Shown: positions 30,428 through 37,322 of the stretch, one piece after another
Layout: the number at the start of each line of letters is the position of its first letter
Numbering within the stretch: the first letter of the stretch is position 1
NCBI RefSeq assembly: GCF_000384335.2
Contig: NZ_KQ031382.1
Span: forward strand, 682,001-746,000
Direction: 5' to 3'
DNA from: Hyphomicrobium sp. 99
Lineage (GTDB): Bacteria > Pseudomonadota > Alphaproteobacteria > Rhizobiales > Hyphomicrobiaceae
DNA length: 64,000 nucleotides
Made by a program: the position numbers and the translations under genes
The notes under the pieces: generated by a model
Told to the model about the DNA's origin: nothing
Seen by the model: the letters and a program-made list of their open reading frames with translations, nothing else
Database searches by the model: none

Positions 30428-31408
30428 ATGTCGAATAGGATGTTTGGCGCGGTTGCCGTTCTGGCAGCCGCGTGTTTGGCGATTGCCCTCGGTGGGCTGT
30501 CTCCAGCCATGGCCGGCCTCGGGCAGCCTACGAGTGGCGAGCTGGGTCTGCAGGTTCCTGCAACCCCGATCATGGGGCAGATCTTCGACCTCTTTCATGT
30601 CGTAAATACGATCCTCACCGTGATCGTTTTGTTCGTTCTCGTTTTGCTGGTCTACGTGATGTACCGCTTCAACGAGAAGCGGAACCCAACCCCGTCCAGA
30701 ACCTCGCACAACACGATGCTTGAGGTTGCTTGGACCATCGTCCCGATCCTCATCCTCGTCGGCATTTCGATCCCCTCCTTCCACCTCCTCTTCAATCAGT
30801 ACAACTTCCCCAAGCCCGATCTGACGATCAAGGCCACCGGCAACGCTTGGTTCTGGGAACATGAGTACGTTGACGACAAGGTGACGATCACCTCGAACAT
30901 GGTCAACGACGAGGACGTTGTCAGGGCGAAGATCGGCGACGAAGCTTTCGACAAGCAGTTTGGTTCACTTCAGGGCGCCGCGCTCCACAACGCTCTCTAT
31001 GAGGCTTCGATTCCTCTCTGGAACGAGGACAAGAAGCTTCGCCGTCTGACGGTCGATCAGGAGATTGCTGTTCCCGTTAACAAGGTTGTTGACGTCCTGG
31101 TGACGTCCAACGACGTCATCCACTCGTGGACGATCCCGTCTTTCGGCGTAAAGATGCAGGCCGTTCCGGGTCGCGTCGCGGCGGTTTGGTTCAAGGCCAC
31201 GAAGATCGGTTCCTATCACGGCCAGTGCGCAGTGCTATGCGGCAAGCTCCATTCAGCCATGCCGATAACCGTTCGGGTTGTCGATCAGCCGGTCTATGAT
31301 GCATGGATTGCGGCAGTGAAGGCCAAGGACAAGAAGAAGGCCCAGCAGATCCTCGATGCGGATACTGCGAGCAAGGTTGATTTTCAGTCGGTGGCTCAGG
31401 CGCAGTAA
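30428..31408 (+). CDS. coxB: Cytochrome c oxidase subunit II
   Basis: 326 residues. A signal peptide (to about residue 29, PAMA-G) is followed by two transmembrane helices (about 58-80 and 97-118: TMLEVAWTIVPILILVGIS) and a periplasmic cupredoxin domain. CuA ligands are seen as His232 (VIHSW), Cys267, Cys271, His275 and Met278. Trp-rich GNAWFWEHEY is the usual electron-entry region. The loop normally reading CSELCG reads CAVLCG: Val269 replaces the Glu that helps bind the Mg/Mn ion, and Gln244 replaces the Asp in KxDAVPGR. It accepts electrons from cytochrome c and passes them to heme a. Clustered with coxA. Confidence 0.95.
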   Translation: MSNRMFGAVAVLAAACLAIALGGLSPAMAGLGQPTSGELGLQVPATPIMGQIFDLFHVVNTILTVIVLFVLVLLVYVMYRFNEKRNPTPSRTSHNTMLEVAWTIVPILILVGISIPSFHLLFNQYNFPKPDLTIKATGNAWFWEHEYVDDKVTITSNMVNDEDVVRAKIGDEAFDKQFGSLQGAALHNALYEASIPLWNEDKKLRRLTVDQEIAVPVNKVVDVLVTSNDVIHSWTIPSFGVKMQAVPGRVAAVWFKATKIGSYHGQCAVLCGKLHSAMPITVRVVDQPVYDAWIAAVKAKDKKKAQQILDADTASKVDFQSVAQAQ

Positions 31409-31501
31409 CGGCAGTGAATGATGGCCGGGCGCTAGCTCGACATATCTGACGCTCAACAAAAAAAAGTTCAGACAAAACTTCCGGGACAAGGGCTCTACGA
31501 A

Positions 31502-33127
31502 ATGGGAAGCACTGCACACGCAATAGGCGAAGGGCACGATCACGCCCCGCCATTTTTCAAACGGTGGTTCTGTTCGACGAACCACAAGGACATCGGCACC
31601 CTCTATTTGCTGTTCGCGATCTTCGCGGGCTGCATAGGCCTGTTCCTTTCGGTGGTGATGCGACTAGAGCTCCAGGAGCCGGGTCTGCAGTACTTCGCAA
31701 ACGAAGGCATCTATAACGTCTTCGTCACGGGCCACGGCTTGATCATGGTGTTCTTCATGGTCATGCCCGCCATGATCGGCGGCTTCGGCAACTGGTTTGT
31801 GCCGTTGATGATCGGCGCGCCGGATATGGCGTTCCCGCGCATGAACAACATCTCGTTCTGGCTGCTGCCGGCAGCGTTCGCGCTGTTGCTCATCTCGTTG
31901 TTCGTGCCTGGCACGGCCGACGCTGATGGCGTAGGCGCGGGCTGGATCCTCGTCGCCCCGTTGTCCGAACGTATTGGCCATCCGGGACCGGCGGTCGATT
32001 TCGGCATCTTGGCGCTGCATCTTGCGGGCGCTTCGTCGATCCTCGGCGCCATCAACTTCATCACGACGATCTTCAACATGCGCGCTCCGGGCATGACGCT
32101 GCACAAGATGCCGCTCTTTGCCTGGTCGGTGCTCGTCACCGCGTTCCTGCTGCTTCTGTCGCTGCCGGTTCTCGCGGGCGCGATCACGATGCTGCTCACG
32201 GACCGCAACTTCGGAACCACCTTCTATGATCCGGCAGGTGGCGGCGATCCGCTGCTTTACGCGCATCTCTTCTGGTTCTTCGGTCACCCCGAAGTTTACA
32301 TTCTCATCCTGCCGGGCTTCGGCATGATCAGCCACATCGTGTCCACGTTCTCGCGGAAGCCGATCTTCGGTTACCTCGGCATGGCCTACGCAATGGTGGC
32401 GATCGGTCTCGTCGGCTTCATCGTCTGGGCCCACCACATGTATACGGCGGGTCTGAGCGTCGACACGCAGGCCTACTTCATGTTCGCGACGATGGTCATC
32501 GCGGTGCCAACAGGCATCAAGGTGTTCTCGTGGATCGCAACGATGTGGGGTGGTTCGCTTCAGTTCCGCGTGCCCATGCTCTGGGCGCTGGGATTCATCT
32601 TCCTCTTCACGGTCGGTGGCGTGACGGGCGTGATGTGCGCAAACGCGGGCATCGATCGTTCGCTGCACAACACCTATTACGTCGTGGCGCACTTCCACTA
32701 CGTGCTGTCGCTCGGCGCAGTGTTCTCGATCTTCGCGGGCTGGTACTACTGGTTCCCGAAAATGTCGGGCTACATGTACAATGAAACGCTCGGCAAGCTT
32801 CACTTCTGGCTGACGTTCATCGGCGCCAACGTGCTGTTCTTCCCGCAACACTTCCTTGGACTGTCGGGCATGCAGCGCCACTACGCCGACTATCCGGAAG
32901 CGTTCACCTACTGGAACCGCGTGTCGTCCATCGGCTCGTACATCACGACGGCTGGCGTAGTCGTCTTCCTGTTCGGCATGTTCTACGCCTACTTCATCCG
33001 CAAGGAGAGAGCGGCGGGTAATCCGTGGGGTCCCGGAGCGACAACGCTCGAATGGACGCTGTCGTCACCGCCTCCGTTCCACTCTTACGAAACGCTGCCG
33101 CGGATCGCCGCGACGGACCACCACTGA
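31502..33127 (+). CDS. coxA: Cytochrome c oxidase subunit I (aa3 type)
   Basis: 541 residues, 12 transmembrane helices. Low-spin heme ligand His78 (VTGHG), CuB/heme a3 ligands in GHPEVY and VAHFHY, the crosslinked Tyr in HPEVY, D-channel residues ([15 protein letters not shown], the Glu of HPE) and the K-channel Lys in PTGIK are all present, so this is an A-type proton-pumping oxidase. Two unusual positions: HNT at residues 389-391, where HDT is normal (Asp is an Mg/Mn ligand), and Arg459-His460, where Arg-Arg contacts heme propionates. It reduces oxygen to water in the inner membrane. The spacing of 93 bases to coxB fits one operon. Confidence 0.96.
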
Positions 33128-33133
33128 TCTAGA

Positions 33134-33174
33134 ATGGGTGAGCGGCGGGGCGAGGCATTTGCCCCGCCGCCCAT
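33134..33174 (+). promoter_or_regulatory. Intercistronic GC-rich hairpin after coxA
   Basis: GCGGCGGGGC (33142-33151) pairs perfectly with GCCCCGCCGC (33161-33170), with outer ATGG/CCAT pairs, six bases after the coxA stop. No T-tract follows, so it is unlikely to be a strong intrinsic terminator. It may protect the coxBA transcript end or lower downstream expression. The hairpin is seen; the role is inferred. Confidence 0.5.
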
Positions 33175-33214
33175 CCGATTTACTGAAACTGAATTTTTTG
33201 ACGGCGCCCGCGAT

Positions 33215-34138
33215 ATGAGCATTCAAAGTGAAGTTGGCCAAGCCGACCTGACGCTGGAGCCCAGCGTGAGCGATTTCATCCAGCTGATGAAACCGCGGGT
33301 AATGACGCTTGTCGTCTTCACGGCGCTTGCCGCTATGGTCGCGGCTCCCGGACCGATCAATCCAATCCTCGGCTTCATTGCGATCATCTCCATCGCCATC
33401 GGAGCGGGCGCCTCGGGCGCTCTCAATATGTGGTACGACGCCGACATCGACGCGCGCATGGCGCGCACGGCCGCTCGTCCTTTGCCTCGTGGCCGCGTCA
33501 CGGGCGACGAAGCACTGAACTTCGGCGGCGTCTTGAGCGTCTGCTCTGTTCTGACGCTTGGCGTGCTGGTCAACTGGACCGCCGGAGCGCTGCTCGCTGT
33601 TACGATCGGCTTCTATCTCTTCGTCTACACGATGTGGCTGAAGCGGCGTACGCCCTACAACATCGTCATCGGCGGCGCGGCGGGTGCATTCCCGCCAATG
33701 GTCGGCTGGGCCGCCGTCACGGGCAGCATCAGCCTCGATAGCATTCTGCTGTTCCTCATCATCTTCATGTGGACGCCCCCGCACTTCTGGGCGCTGTCTC
33801 TCTACCGTTGCCGCGATTACGAGCGCGTCGGTGTGCCGATGCTGCCGGTCGTTAGGGGCCTTCCCGAAACACGCAAACAGATCCTGCTCTACTCCATCGC
33901 TCTCGTGCCTCTGGCCGTTGTGCCCTTCTTCACCGGTCTCGGCGGGATAACGTATCTCGTCTGCTCGGTGGCGCTCGGCGCGGTCTTCCTCGGTCTTGCC
34001 GTTCGCGTTTACTTCACGACCGAAGGCCGTGAAGCCGATACGGCGGCGCGTCAGCTTTTCTGGTTTTCGATCCTATATTTGTACGTGCTGTTTGCCGTTC
34101 TTTTCGGTGAAGCGATATTTAATCGTTTTTTTGCGTGA
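33215..34138 (+). CDS. ctaB: Heme o synthase (protoheme IX farnesyltransferase)
   Basis: 307 residues from the ATG at 33215; the frame is open back to 33134, but that would start inside the hairpin after coxA. A UbiA-type integral membrane prenyltransferase with two Asp-rich motifs: [23 protein letters not shown] (near 75-95) and [19 protein letters not shown] (near 200). It transfers farnesyl from farnesyl diphosphate to heme b, giving heme o, the precursor of the heme a in the oxidase encoded beside it. About nine transmembrane helices. Confidence 0.93.
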
Positions 34139-34313: not shown

Positions 34314-34937
34314 ATGAAAGAGGACCACACCGTGCATCGGGATGACGACGGCGCTGCGAAGGCCGTCCGCCAAAACCGGCGGGCTGTATTCGGCTGCCTC
34401 GCCGCGCTCGCGGTCATGGGCTCGATCACCGCCGCTTCGCCGACGCTTTACTCCATGTTCTGCAAGGCGACCGGTTACGCCGGCACCGTTCAGCGCGCGG
34501 AGAATAATAACGCCGGGAAGGTGCTCGACCGCACGCTGACGGTCCGCTTCGATTCCAACGTTGCTCCGGGCCTCCCATGGACATTCGAGCCCGACGTTTC
34601 GAAGATGGAAGTGAAGATCGGCGAGACGACGATGGCCTTCTTCCGCGCCACGAACAATTCCGACAAGCCGGTCAAAGGTCAGGCGATATTCAACGTCACG
34701 CCCGAGGCCTTCGGCTCGTACTTCAACAAGATCGAATGCTTCTGCTTCAAGGAGCAGACGCTGCAGCCGCACCAGACTGTTGAAATGCCGGTGACCTTCT
34801 TCCTCGACCCGAAACTGGTCGAAGACAGCTCCACCGCATTACAGCCCGAGGTCACGCTGTCATATTCTTTCTTCCCGGCCGTACCTAAGGCGGCGACGGC
34901 AGAGGTTACGCCTCCGCAGCCGAAGGCGGGGGGCTGA
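34314..34937 (+). CDS. ctaG: Cytochrome c oxidase assembly protein CtaG (Cox11)
   Basis: 207 residues. One N-terminal transmembrane helix (VFGCLAALAVMGSITAASPTLYSMF, about 24-48) followed by a periplasmic immunoglobulin-like domain. The hallmarks FCKATGYAGT (near 50) and the copper-binding CFCF in NKIECFCFKEQ (near 142) are present, as is PVTFFLDP near 160. It delivers copper to the CuB site of subunit I. It starts three bases after coxF and continues the assembly module. Confidence 0.94.
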   Translation: MKEDHTVHRDDDGAAKAVRQNRRAVFGCLAALAVMGSITAASPTLYSMFCKATGYAGTVQRAENNNAGKVLDRTLTVRFDSNVAPGLPWTFEPDVSKMEVKIGETTMAFFRATNNSDKPVKGQAIFNVTPEAFGSYFNKIECFCFKEQTLQPHQTVEMPVTFFLDPKLVEDSSTALQPEVTLSYSFFPAVPKAATAEVTPPQPKAGG

Positions 34938-35061: not shown

Positions 35062-36000
35062 ATGGCTGATACCCACGCAAAACATCATGATTATCATCTC
35101 GTAAATCCGAGCCCTTGGCCGCTGTTGGCCTCCCTTTCGGCGCTCGTCATGGCGATCGGCGCCATTGCGTGGATGCGCACGCATGTCGATGGCGAAGGCA
35201 TCCTCGGCGTCAAGGGCCCGTGGCTCTTTGCGATCGGTGGAGCAGCCGTTCTCGCGTCCGCATGGGCATGGTGGATCGACGTCATCCGCGAAGCCAATCA
35301 GGGTTTCCAAACGCCCGTCGTTCAGCTGCACCTGCGCTACGGAATGATCCTGTTCATCGCTTCGGAAGTGATGTTCTTCGTCGCTTGGTTCTGGGCGTAT
35401 TTCGACGCGGCGCTCTTCCCCGCCGGCGTTCACGAGCTGATGAACAACCCCGGCCAGATCGTCGGTATGGTCACGCGCGATGAAGTCTTTGGTGGCCACT
35501 GGCCGCCGGCAGCCGTCGATCCGACAGCAGCCACAGTTCCGGGCTTCTTCAAGCACACGTTCAACCCCTGGGGTCTGCCGCTCGTCAACACGCTCATCCT
35601 GTTGACTTCGGGCTGCACGGTGACCTGGGCTCACCACGCGCTGCTGAAGAACGACCGTCGTGGCCTCGTCATCGGCCTCATCCTGACAGTCCTGCTTGGC
35701 ATGACCTTCACGGCGCTCCAGGCGCTTGAATACAGCCACGCTGCCTTCAGCTTCGCCGGCCACAGCTATGGCTCGACGTTTTTCATGGCGACGGGCTTCC
35801 ACGGCGCGCACGTGATCATCGGCACGATCTTCTTGGCCGTTTGCTTGGTCCGTTCCCTGCGCGGTGCATTCACTCCGCAACAGCATTTCGGCTTCGAGGC
35901 GGCTGCCTGGTACTGGCACTTCGTCGACGTCGTCTGGCTGTTCCTCTTCGCCTGCATCTACGTGTGGGGCGCAGGCCCGATCGTGCCGGGCGCCGAATAA
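35062..36000 (+). CDS. coxC: Cytochrome c oxidase subunit III
   Basis: 312 residues, seven transmembrane helices. An N-terminal HDYHLVNPSPWPLLAS is followed by the subunit III core: RYGMILFIASEVMFFVAWFW with the conserved membrane Glu (near 100), HTFNPWGLPLVNTLILLTSG (near 170), FTALQALEYSHAAF and TGFHGAHVIIGT with its conserved His pair, then AWYWHFVDVVWLFLF. Subunit III stabilises proton uptake and turnover of subunit I. A loop insertion near residues 115-165 is longer than in mitochondrial homologues but usual in alphaproteobacteria. A terminator-like hairpin follows. Confidence 0.95.
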   Translation: MADTHAKHHDYHLVNPSPWPLLASLSALVMAIGAIAWMRTHVDGEGILGVKGPWLFAIGGAAVLASAWAWWIDVIREANQGFQTPVVQLHLRYGMILFIASEVMFFVAWFWAYFDAALFPAGVHELMNNPGQIVGMVTRDEVFGGHWPPAAVDPTAATVPGFFKHTFNPWGLPLVNTLILLTSGCTVTWAHHALLKNDRRGLVIGLILTVLLGMTFTALQALEYSHAAFSFAGHSYGSTFFMATGFHGAHVIIGTIFLAVCLVRSLRGAFTPQQHFGFEAAAWYWHFVDVVWLFLFACIYVWGAGPIVPGAE

Positions 36001-36150: not shown

Positions 36151-36525
36151 GTGGTCCATGACGCTAGGCCCATTCCGCCACTCGTAACCGCATTGACCTG
36201 CCAGTGCCCGAGCTGCGGCAAAGGCAAACTCTTCGTCAATGTCCTGAACCTGCGCGATCACTGCGATGTTTGCGGATTGGATTACAAGTTCATCGACACC
36301 GGCGACGGTCCTGCCGTGTTCGCGATCTTCATCCTCGGATTTCTTTGCGTCGGCGGCGCGCTCGTCGCCGAATTCAAGTTCGGCGTACCATGGTGGATGC
36401 ACGTGCTGCTCTGGGGTATTCTCACCCCGCTCATCGCGGTTTTTCTGCTGCGCTTCCTCAAGGCGGGATTGATCGCGTTACAATTCAAAAATAAGGCCGA
36501 GGAAGGCCGTCTCACCAAGGAGTGA
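36151..36525 (+). CDS. DUF983 membrane protein (oxidase cluster)
   Basis: 124 residues from a GTG at 36151; no in-frame ATG fits. An N-terminal zinc-ribbon-like pair of CxxC motifs (CQCPSCGKGKLF and CDVCGLDY) is followed by two transmembrane helices (AVFAIFILGFLCVGGALVAEF and HVLLWGILTPLIAVFLLRFL). DUF983 proteins are found almost exclusively beside coxC and SURF1 in alphaproteobacteria and are thought to help oxidase assembly; the mechanism is unknown. The stop lies just before, and shares its ribosome site with, the SURF1 gene. Confidence 0.88.
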   Translation: MVHDARPIPPLVTALTCQCPSCGKGKLFVNVLNLRDHCDVCGLDYKFIDTGDGPAVFAIFILGFLCVGGALVAEFKFGVPWWMHVLLWGILTPLIAVFLLRFLKAGLIALQFKNKAEEGRLTKE

Positions 36526-36527
36526 CG

Positions 36528-37322
36528 ATGTTCGCGCGTTGGCGCGCCGCAGGTCTGGTCGTCCCAACCATTCTGACGCTGATCATGCTGCCGATCCTTG
36601 TGGGACTCGGCAACTGGCAATGGCATCGGATGATTTGGAAGGATTCGCTGATCTCAAAGATCGACGAGAGGCGGACGGCTGAGCCCGAGTCTTATCCGGC
36701 TGTGCTGTCGGAATACGTCAAATCCGGCGACGTCGAATACAAGCACATGCGCATCACCGGCACATTCGACTACGGCCGCGAGCGCCACCTCTACGCCCCG
36801 ACGACCGCTTCGCAGGGCTGGCATATCTACACCTTGCTCATCCCGGAAGGCGGCCTGCCGCCCATTTTCGTCAATCGCGGATGGGTTCCGAGCGAACTGA
36901 AGGACCCTTCGAAGCGTGCCGAAGGTCAAGTGACGGGCCCGGTGACGATCACCGGACTGGTCCGCCTCGCCCATCCCAAGGCATGGTTCGCCCCCGATAA
37001 TGATTACGCCGGAAACCGCTGGTATTGGCGCGACCTCGACGCCATGCAGTGGGGACCGCAAGGCCCGCCCTCGGTCCTGCAGTTCAATGCTGAAAAGAGC
37101 CAAGCTTACGCGCCGTTCTCGCTGGACGCGGACGCGTCTGTCGAAAATCCCGGCGGCTGGCCAAAGGGCGGCACGACGGAGATCAATATCCCGAACAACC
37201 ATCTCCAGTACGTCGTTACATGGTATGGGCTCGCGGCGACGCTTCTCGTTGTTTTCGCGATCTTTGCTCGACAGCGACTTGAGAGCGTAAACGGCAAAAA
37301 GTTACAACCTAAGGAAGAATGA
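36528..37322 (+). CDS. SURF1 family oxidase assembly protein
   Basis: 264 residues from the ATG at 36528 with AAGGAG five bases before it. Transmembrane helices lie at each end (AAGLVVPTILTLIMLPILVGLGNWQWHRM, about 5-30, and YVVTWYGLAATLLVVFAIFARQR, about 230-255), with a periplasmic domain between. The hallmarks GNWQWHRMIWKD, IFVNRGWVP and NNHLQYVVTWYGLA are all present. Shy1/SURF1 proteins bind heme a and aid insertion into subunit I. Two bases separate it from the DUF983 stop. Confidence 0.93.
   Translation: MFARWRAAGLVVPTILTLIMLPILVGLGNWQWHRMIWKDSLISKIDERRTAEPESYPAVLSEYVKSGDVEYKHMRITGTFDYGRERHLYAPTTASQGWHIYTLLIPEGGLPPIFVNRGWVPSELKDPSKRAEGQVTGPVTITGLVRLAHPKAWFAPDNDYAGNRWYWRDLDAMQWGPQGPPSVLQFNAEKSQAYAPFSLDADASVENPGGWPKGGTTEINIPNNHLQYVVTWYGLAATLLVVFAIFARQRLESVNGKKLQPKEE

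Follow-up and report, generated by a model that had tools for sequence, protein, structure and literature searches.

The window, a 64,000-nt stretch of contig NZ_KQ031382.1 of Hyphomicrobium sp. 99, contains a cox operon whose genes lie in the order coxB, coxA, ctaB, cox11, coxC and surf1-like and were assigned as follows.

30428-31408, + strand: coxB, cytochrome c oxidase subunit II (326 aa, CAVLCGKLHSAM; Glu254 replaced by Val269); TIGR02866 (NCBIfam) at 184.3 bits, cut-off 147.7; Pfam COX2 and COX2_TM; aligned to 1m56_B
31502-33127, + strand: coxA, cytochrome c oxidase subunit I (541 aa), with Asn390 in place of Asp412; TIGR02891 (NCBIfam) at 707.6 bits, cut-off 670.75; aligned to 1m56_A
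33134-34138, + strand: ctaB, heme o synthase; TIGR01473 (NCBIfam) at 328 bits, cut-off 210.3
34314-34937, + strand: ctaG/cox11, oxidase assembly protein; NF003465 (NCBIfam) at 211.7 bits, cut-off 162
35062-36000, + strand: coxC, subunit III, by homology and operon position; top NCBIfam match NF050119 (actinobacterial aa3 subunit III), under that model's cut-off
36522-37322, + strand: surf1-like assembly gene, by homology and operon position; NF050123 (NCBIfam), under cut-off

Four matches to heme-copper oxidase subunit I were found in this genome. Besides CoxA, these were a bo3-like subunit I with an HNSLF motif (L002), a subunit I that is cbb3-like by eye from its translation (L003), and the subunit I of a B-type-like, CuA-bearing oxidase (L004, C3:2548401-2549753) that carries HNTSF in subunit I and CHEYCG in subunit II and adjoins a gene for a cytochrome c that has two CxxCH motifs. 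The window oxidase is therefore the sole A1 cytochrome c oxidase among the four.

Residues were aligned with the chains of R. sphaeroides 1m56, whose structures are solved, and R. sphaeroides numbers are used below unless the window or bovine residue is named. The positions of interest are these.

31232-31234, + strand: CoxB V269 (GTG), R. sphaeroides E254, bovine E198; Mg ligand lost (1m56_B alignment)
32669-32671, + strand: CoxA N390 (AAC), R. sphaeroides D412, bovine D369; Mg ligand lost (1m56_A alignment)
32879-32881, + strand: CoxA H460 (CAC), R. sphaeroides R482, bovine R439; propionate-binding Arg changed to His (GMPRRY to GMQRHY)
31157-31159, + strand: CoxB Q244 (CAG), R. sphaeroides D229, bovine D173 (KQDAVPGR to KMQAVPGR)
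31952-31954, + strand: CoxA V151 (GTC), R. sphaeroides Y175, bovine Y129; water-cluster Tyr lost (LYPPLS to LVAPLS)
32261-32263, + strand: CoxA A254 (GCG), R. sphaeroides Q276, bovine Q232; water-cluster Gln lost (alignment)
32654-32668, + strand: CoxA D385 (R. sphaeroides D407) to H389 (R. sphaeroides H411); kept residues (alignment)

A sequence-only reading of this DNA had proposed that Val269 and Asn390 stand in place of Glu254 and Asp412, two acids that ligate the Mg/Mn ion, and both substitutions were upheld by alignments that are free of gaps nearby and that put V269 on E254 and N390 on D412. Its list of two residues was nonetheless incomplete, having missed R482H, D229Q, Y175V and Q276A. 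The third protein ligand is kept, with CoxA H389 aligning with H411, and Asp407 and Arg481 are retained alongside it. The further statement that the CuA, heme, CuB, D-channel and K-channel residues are intact proved correct for every residue checked, namely the CuA ligands H232, C267, C271, H275 and M278 of CoxB, the CuB ligands H311/H312 and heme ligands H397/H399 of CoxA, the D-channel residues D108 and E264 of CoxA, and the K-channel residues K340 and Y266 of CoxA and E99 of CoxB; the channel residues correspond to Asp132 and Glu286 (D-channel) and Lys362, Tyr288 and CoxB Glu101 (K-channel) of R. sphaeroides. Residues 482, 229, 175 and 276 are among the water-cluster residues holding Mg in the excerpted Table 1B of PMC12901375.

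Matches to CoxA were assembled from 302 loci, of which 290 were analysed; L001 (of L085) and L223 (of L210) were dropped as duplicates, L107-L110 as paralogues or mispairs, and L002, L071, L112, L114, L228 and L301 as lacking CoxB. Within the window's own genus, CoxB reads xVLCG in 22/22 genomes and CoxA reads HNTYY, with Asn, in 21/21 readable genomes, the 22nd locus being too short to reach the site. For the family, 72 genomes outside the genus gave a CoxB match, and 48 loci from them were read: Val occupies 254 in 8/48 (CoxA readable in six, all Asn) and Glu in 40/48 (CoxA readable in 38, all Asp). Because sampling followed matches to the window protein, the wider frequencies are biased: 53 Asp/Glu among 59 analysed of the 60 loci in the order sample; 63 Asp/Glu, 13 Asn/Gln and 3 other among 79 analysed of the 80 loci in the class sample, which was drawn from 153 genomes with a match; and, beyond the class in the same phylum, Asp412, Glu254, Arg482, Tyr175, Gln276 and Asp229 kept in 20/20 (20 of 31 matching genomes). 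His411 was replaced by Gln in 5/20 of that last set. Named plasmid-borne CoxA proteins have Asp412 and Arg482 in 6/6, with Glu254 in 4/4 for which CoxB was read; plasmid-borne ctaD with no annotated coxB within 2 kb was seen at L365 (Microvirga sp. VF16) and L368 (Bradyrhizobium sp. 195).

On a FastTree tree the rows with Val254 group together in a single clade (29 rows, five genera; support 98), whose sister rows are Asp/Glu and for which the next two nodes are supported at 81 and 99. This clade, defined by Val (29/29), has Asn412 in 27/27 readable rows. Position 482 is Arg in 222/222 readable Asp/Glu rows and His in 21/21 readable rows of the clade; 229 is Asp in 223/223 and Gln in 29/29; 175 is Tyr in 223/223 and, among the 29, Val in 21 and Leu in 8; and 276 is Gln in 223/223 and, among 27 readable rows, Ala in 21 and Gln in 6. 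Asp407 is kept in 28/28 readable rows of the clade and His411 in 49/49 Asn412 rows; taken by group, the Asn412 lineages retain His411 and Arg481 wherever these can be read and Asp407 with a single exception, which among the tabulated Mg-less groups is a row with Thr in the CNQ group described below. Of the 223 Asp/Glu rows, seven have Gln and one has Thr at position 411, yet that position is always His with Asn412. In CoxB, a segment of some 40 residues (~165-205, window 30920-31042) gave an unsplit match only in genera g1, g5, g12, g17, g21, g22, g24 and g25, the match being broken there in the remaining listed genera of the family; it was rejected as a cause of the Mg-site change, as Asp/Glu members of g5 and g25 also match unsplit.

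The expected co-occurrence of Asn390 and Val269 held in a broader form, in that Asn412 was found in 49 of 286 readable CoxA-CoxB pairs and in none of them with Glu254, its partner at 254 being Val in 27, Gln in 18 and Arg in 4. The corresponding two-by-two table (Asn412 with Glu254 lost, Asn412 with Glu254, Glu254 lost without Asn412, neither) reads 49/0/8/229; its rows are related, so that a Fisher p value would ignore relatedness and was not used. The changes at 412 and 254 are far from chance, being fixed in the genus and coupled across readable CoxA-CoxB pairs. Single changes do occur: 412 is altered with Glu254 kept in six rows (two G/E, one A/E and three E/E, the last with Gln at 411), and Glu254 is altered with Asp412 kept in seven (five D/Q, one D/N and one D/K).

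Recurrence was assessed on a maximum-likelihood tree of 137 rows from which the tested columns had been excluded; this tree requires 8 changes to Asn412, 14 losses of Glu254 and 5 changes to His482. Across the tests only 5-9 supported independent pairs were available, and median p ranged from 0.03 to 0.5. Six such pairs differed at Asn412; loss of Glu254 went in the same direction in 4-6 of them and in the opposite direction in 0 (median p 0.03), with 6/6 in 159 of 200 random pairings, five in 38 and four in 3. For His482 against Glu254 loss there were five pairs, with a mean of 4.2 in the same direction and 0 opposite (median p 0.125), and every occurrence of His482 (28 rows plus 34 targeted loci) lacked Glu254. 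Loss of Q276 or D229 against Asn412 gave too few pairs and was not significant. When all changes at 412 and 411 were pooled against Glu254 loss, the 14 supported pairs had a mean of 4.8 in the same direction and 1.1 opposite, which was not significant (median p 0.22); strict coupling is therefore stated for Asn only. The tree indicates that relatives have made the linked change several times independently.

Broken columns were also mapped. Near-invariant columns were those conserved at 99% or more in the 223 Asp412/Glu254 rows, with the two defining columns left out; there were 203, of which 10 lie in the water cluster as listed in the excerpted Table 1B of PMC12901375. The window clade breaks 5/203 (Y175, Q276, R482, D229 and window C379), and by that list four of the five lie in the Mg water cluster (p = 1.5e-5, with columns treated as independent). 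As a control, five canonical clades break 0 columns at 99%. Other groups at this threshold have 2/2 broken columns in the cluster (CNQ), 2/2 (f50), 1/1 (L007), 1/1 (f43) and 3/6 (f118, L295). At 95%, where the same list places 14 of 285 columns in the cluster, the window clade has 5/7 of its broken columns there (p 2.6e-6), CNQ 3/4, f50 2/4, L007 1/5 (p 0.22), f118 3/8 and f43 2/2, the cluster share dropping for some single loci relative to 99%.

Other lineages carry versions of the site that differ in detail. The CNQ group comprises 16 rows (15 CNQ, 1 CQQ), with named members in Rhodospirillales, Acetobacterales and SAR116, and has lost Asp229 in 16/16, with Tyr or His in its place. Family f118 has Asn/Gln/His at 412/254/482 in 30/30 loci read (30 of 40 matches listed) and Thr at 229 in 29/30, one f118 genus keeping Asp229. 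Family f43 has Asp/Gln/His in 4/4 with Asp229 kept; Gln254, His482 and a retained Asp412 are the common states of its loci L203 and L339-L342, and the CoxB of L203, the one locus in which this loop was read for an insertion, has five additional residues within the CuA loop (CSQICGAGEGYAGHSFM). In f50, three species have Arg254 and a fourth has Gln254, each together with Asn412 and His482; a fifth species has Gln411-Asp412 with Glu254 at L227, and Ser412 with Arg482 at L228, a locus without CoxB. L007 and three of the four f50 rows keep Asp229 while Glu254 is changed to Arg and Arg482 to His. Since f50, L007, f43 and one f118 genus keep Asp229, an altered 229 is not the only solution. The 411-412 pair reads Gln-Glu in place of His-Asp at L041 (Nitrobacter winogradskyi), L195 and L235, with Glu254 kept, which is a reshuffling of ligands and not a loss. 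Among named relatives, Plastoroseomonas hellenica (L047) has the Asn/Gln state.

The window enzyme has thus lost two of the three protein ligands of Mg, as well as Arg482, Asp229, Tyr175 and Gln276. We consider it probable, from the sequence pattern, that this A1 oxidase functions with no structural Mg/Mn ion between subunits I and II and that protein fills the site. One divalent cation and two carboxylates would depart together, leaving the net charge unchanged, and such a charge-neutral joint loss would account for the absence of Glu254 from every pair with Asn412. Protein would occupy the space left behind; by analogy with ba3, the probable plug here is CoxB Gln244, whose side chain exceeds that of the ancestral Asp by one methylene and matches that of ba3 Glu126 in length. 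In the bovine enzyme Arg439 is salt-bridged to the heme propionates, according to the excerpted text of PMC3656056, so the change of Arg482 to His should retune the hemes through their propionates. Related lineages may have reached a metal-free site by other routes, namely Gln254 with Tyr229; Arg254 with His482, whereby a guanidinium would be shifted from subunit I to subunit II; and Glu412 with Lys254, read at one locus (L006, from one metagenome-assembled genome), where a salt bridge replacing the metal is possible. On this reading O2 is still reduced by the window enzyme, which very probably also pumps protons.

Sequencing error, a pseudogene or misalignment as the source of these substitutions has a negligible probability, and no point in its support was found; the frames are open, family cut-offs are passed, no gap lies near the sites against the solved structures, and agreement among the genomes of 22 species refutes it by genus-wide fixation. 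It is also quite improbable that a dispensable metal site is simply drifting under relaxed selection, with no compensated alternative state. Such drift would accord with the variation of 254 within a single genus, where L224-226 have Arg and L210 has Gln, and with the existence of single losses (G/E, A/E, D/Q), but the window clade is fixed for Asn412 (27/27 readable), His482 (21/21 readable) and Gln229 (29/29), the same positions have moved to the same residues (Asn412, His482) in separate lineages, and few other invariant columns are broken.

A remodelled site that still binds a divalent ion, though more weakly, with His411, the Asn412 amide oxygen, backbone and waters as ligands is unlikely, albeit the least so of these alternatives. 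Amide oxygens are able to bind Mg, His411 is kept in all 49 Asn412 rows and Asp407 in the 28 readable rows of the clade, and His411, Asn412 and waters might hold a weak ion. Both carboxylate ligands are lost, however, adjacent Arg482 and Asp229 are altered too, no single metal geometry fits the Arg, Gln or Val found at 254 in relatives, and ba3, with Asn and Gln at both positions, has no Mg in the excerpted text of PMC12901375. An A1 oxidase that functions with protein in place of the ion therefore remains the preferred reading, and the proposal that the oxidase is co-evolved and working, with its Mg/Mn site missing or remodelled, appears sound, except that strict coupling fails for changes other than Asn at 412. 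It is favoured by fixation in 22 species with catalytic residues kept, by recurrence of the pair of D412N and Glu254 loss in several lineages, and by the clustering of the remaining broken invariant columns within the Mg water cluster as published in the excerpted Table 1B.

A broader proposal, which we hold only tentatively and at somewhat under even confidence, is that A-type oxidases can do without the Mg/Mn ion, and that side chains have taken its place independently in several alphaproteobacterial lineages, whose enzymes, free of the metal and of Glu198, keep full A-type pumping efficiency. The recurring linked set would then consist of Glu254 loss, Asn412, His482 and a change at Asp229; Pro176Ala was rejected as a member, as Ala is already present in 72/214 canonical rows. 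Mutant studies of the Mg site exist. Natural A-type oxidases without the Mg elements and with channels and redox centres intact would allow the metal and pumping questions to be separated without damaging mutations, and independent repeats of the linked change would serve as a natural test of the metal's role. Recurrence also shows which residues are prone to change jointly and offers a template for mutants of R. sphaeroides or P. denitrificans. An optional Mg with full pumping, if true, would exclude models that need Mg or a Glu198 switch for proton storage or release.

These proposals bear on published views of the site. In the excerpted text of PMC5495810, every aa3-type oxidase is said to contain an Mg ion, whose presence may bear on the difference in pumping efficiency from Mg-less ba3. 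The excerpted text of PMC10598403 gives Glu198 and the Mg water cluster the task of storing pumped protons and releasing them in time, and that of PMC7435947 names Paracoccus His403 (R. sphaeroides His411) and a propionate as candidates for the proton-loading site. Among the literature matches listed, which leave most subscription papers outside their scope and so carry little weight, no report of A-type oxidases without the Mg acids was found; PMC10715153, on deranged respiratory enzymes, makes no mention of magnesium, Mg2+, CuA or COX2, the excerpt of PMC6431628 does not discuss these residues, and PMC4321873 contains none of the terms sought.

Compared with known systems, the window enzyme resembles the aa3 (A1) oxidases of R. 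sphaeroides and P. denitrificans in its full-length subunits I and II, its CuA, heme and CuB ligands, its D- and K-channel residues, its His411, Asp407 and Arg481, and an operon with ctaB, cox11, coxC and a surf1-like gene, and differs from them in D412N, E254V, R482H, D229Q, Y175V and Q276A. As the His among the Mg ligands is kept while Asp is changed to Asn and Glu to Val, it was filed as an A1 variant and not as a canonical Mg-containing aa3. Structures of Thermus thermophilus ba3, as given in the excerpts of PMC12901375 and PMC5495810, have no Mg and place Asn377, Gln151 and Glu126 at these positions; Glu126 of subunit II is the counterpart of Asp173/229 (excerpted Table 1B of PMC12901375), and its carboxyl occupies the would-be metal position (PMC5495810, in excerpt). 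The window enzyme is like ba3, as excerpted from PMC12901375, in having Asn for Asp369, no acid at Glu198 and, in place of D173, a longer residue. It differs in being an A1 oxidase with a D-channel, in its His at R439, where ba3 has Arg450, in Gln rather than Glu at 173, and in Val rather than Gln at 198, so that only the Asn of the Asn/Gln ligand pattern of ba3 is present. B-type oxidases have no active D-channel in the same excerpt, whereas Asp108 and Glu264 are present in the window CoxA. Closer in type are the CNQ-type aa3 oxidases, which are likewise A1, with Asn412, no Glu254 and Asp229 lost; theirs, however, have Gln254 and Tyr or His at 229, keep Arg482 and Tyr175, and are separated by the tree from the window clade.
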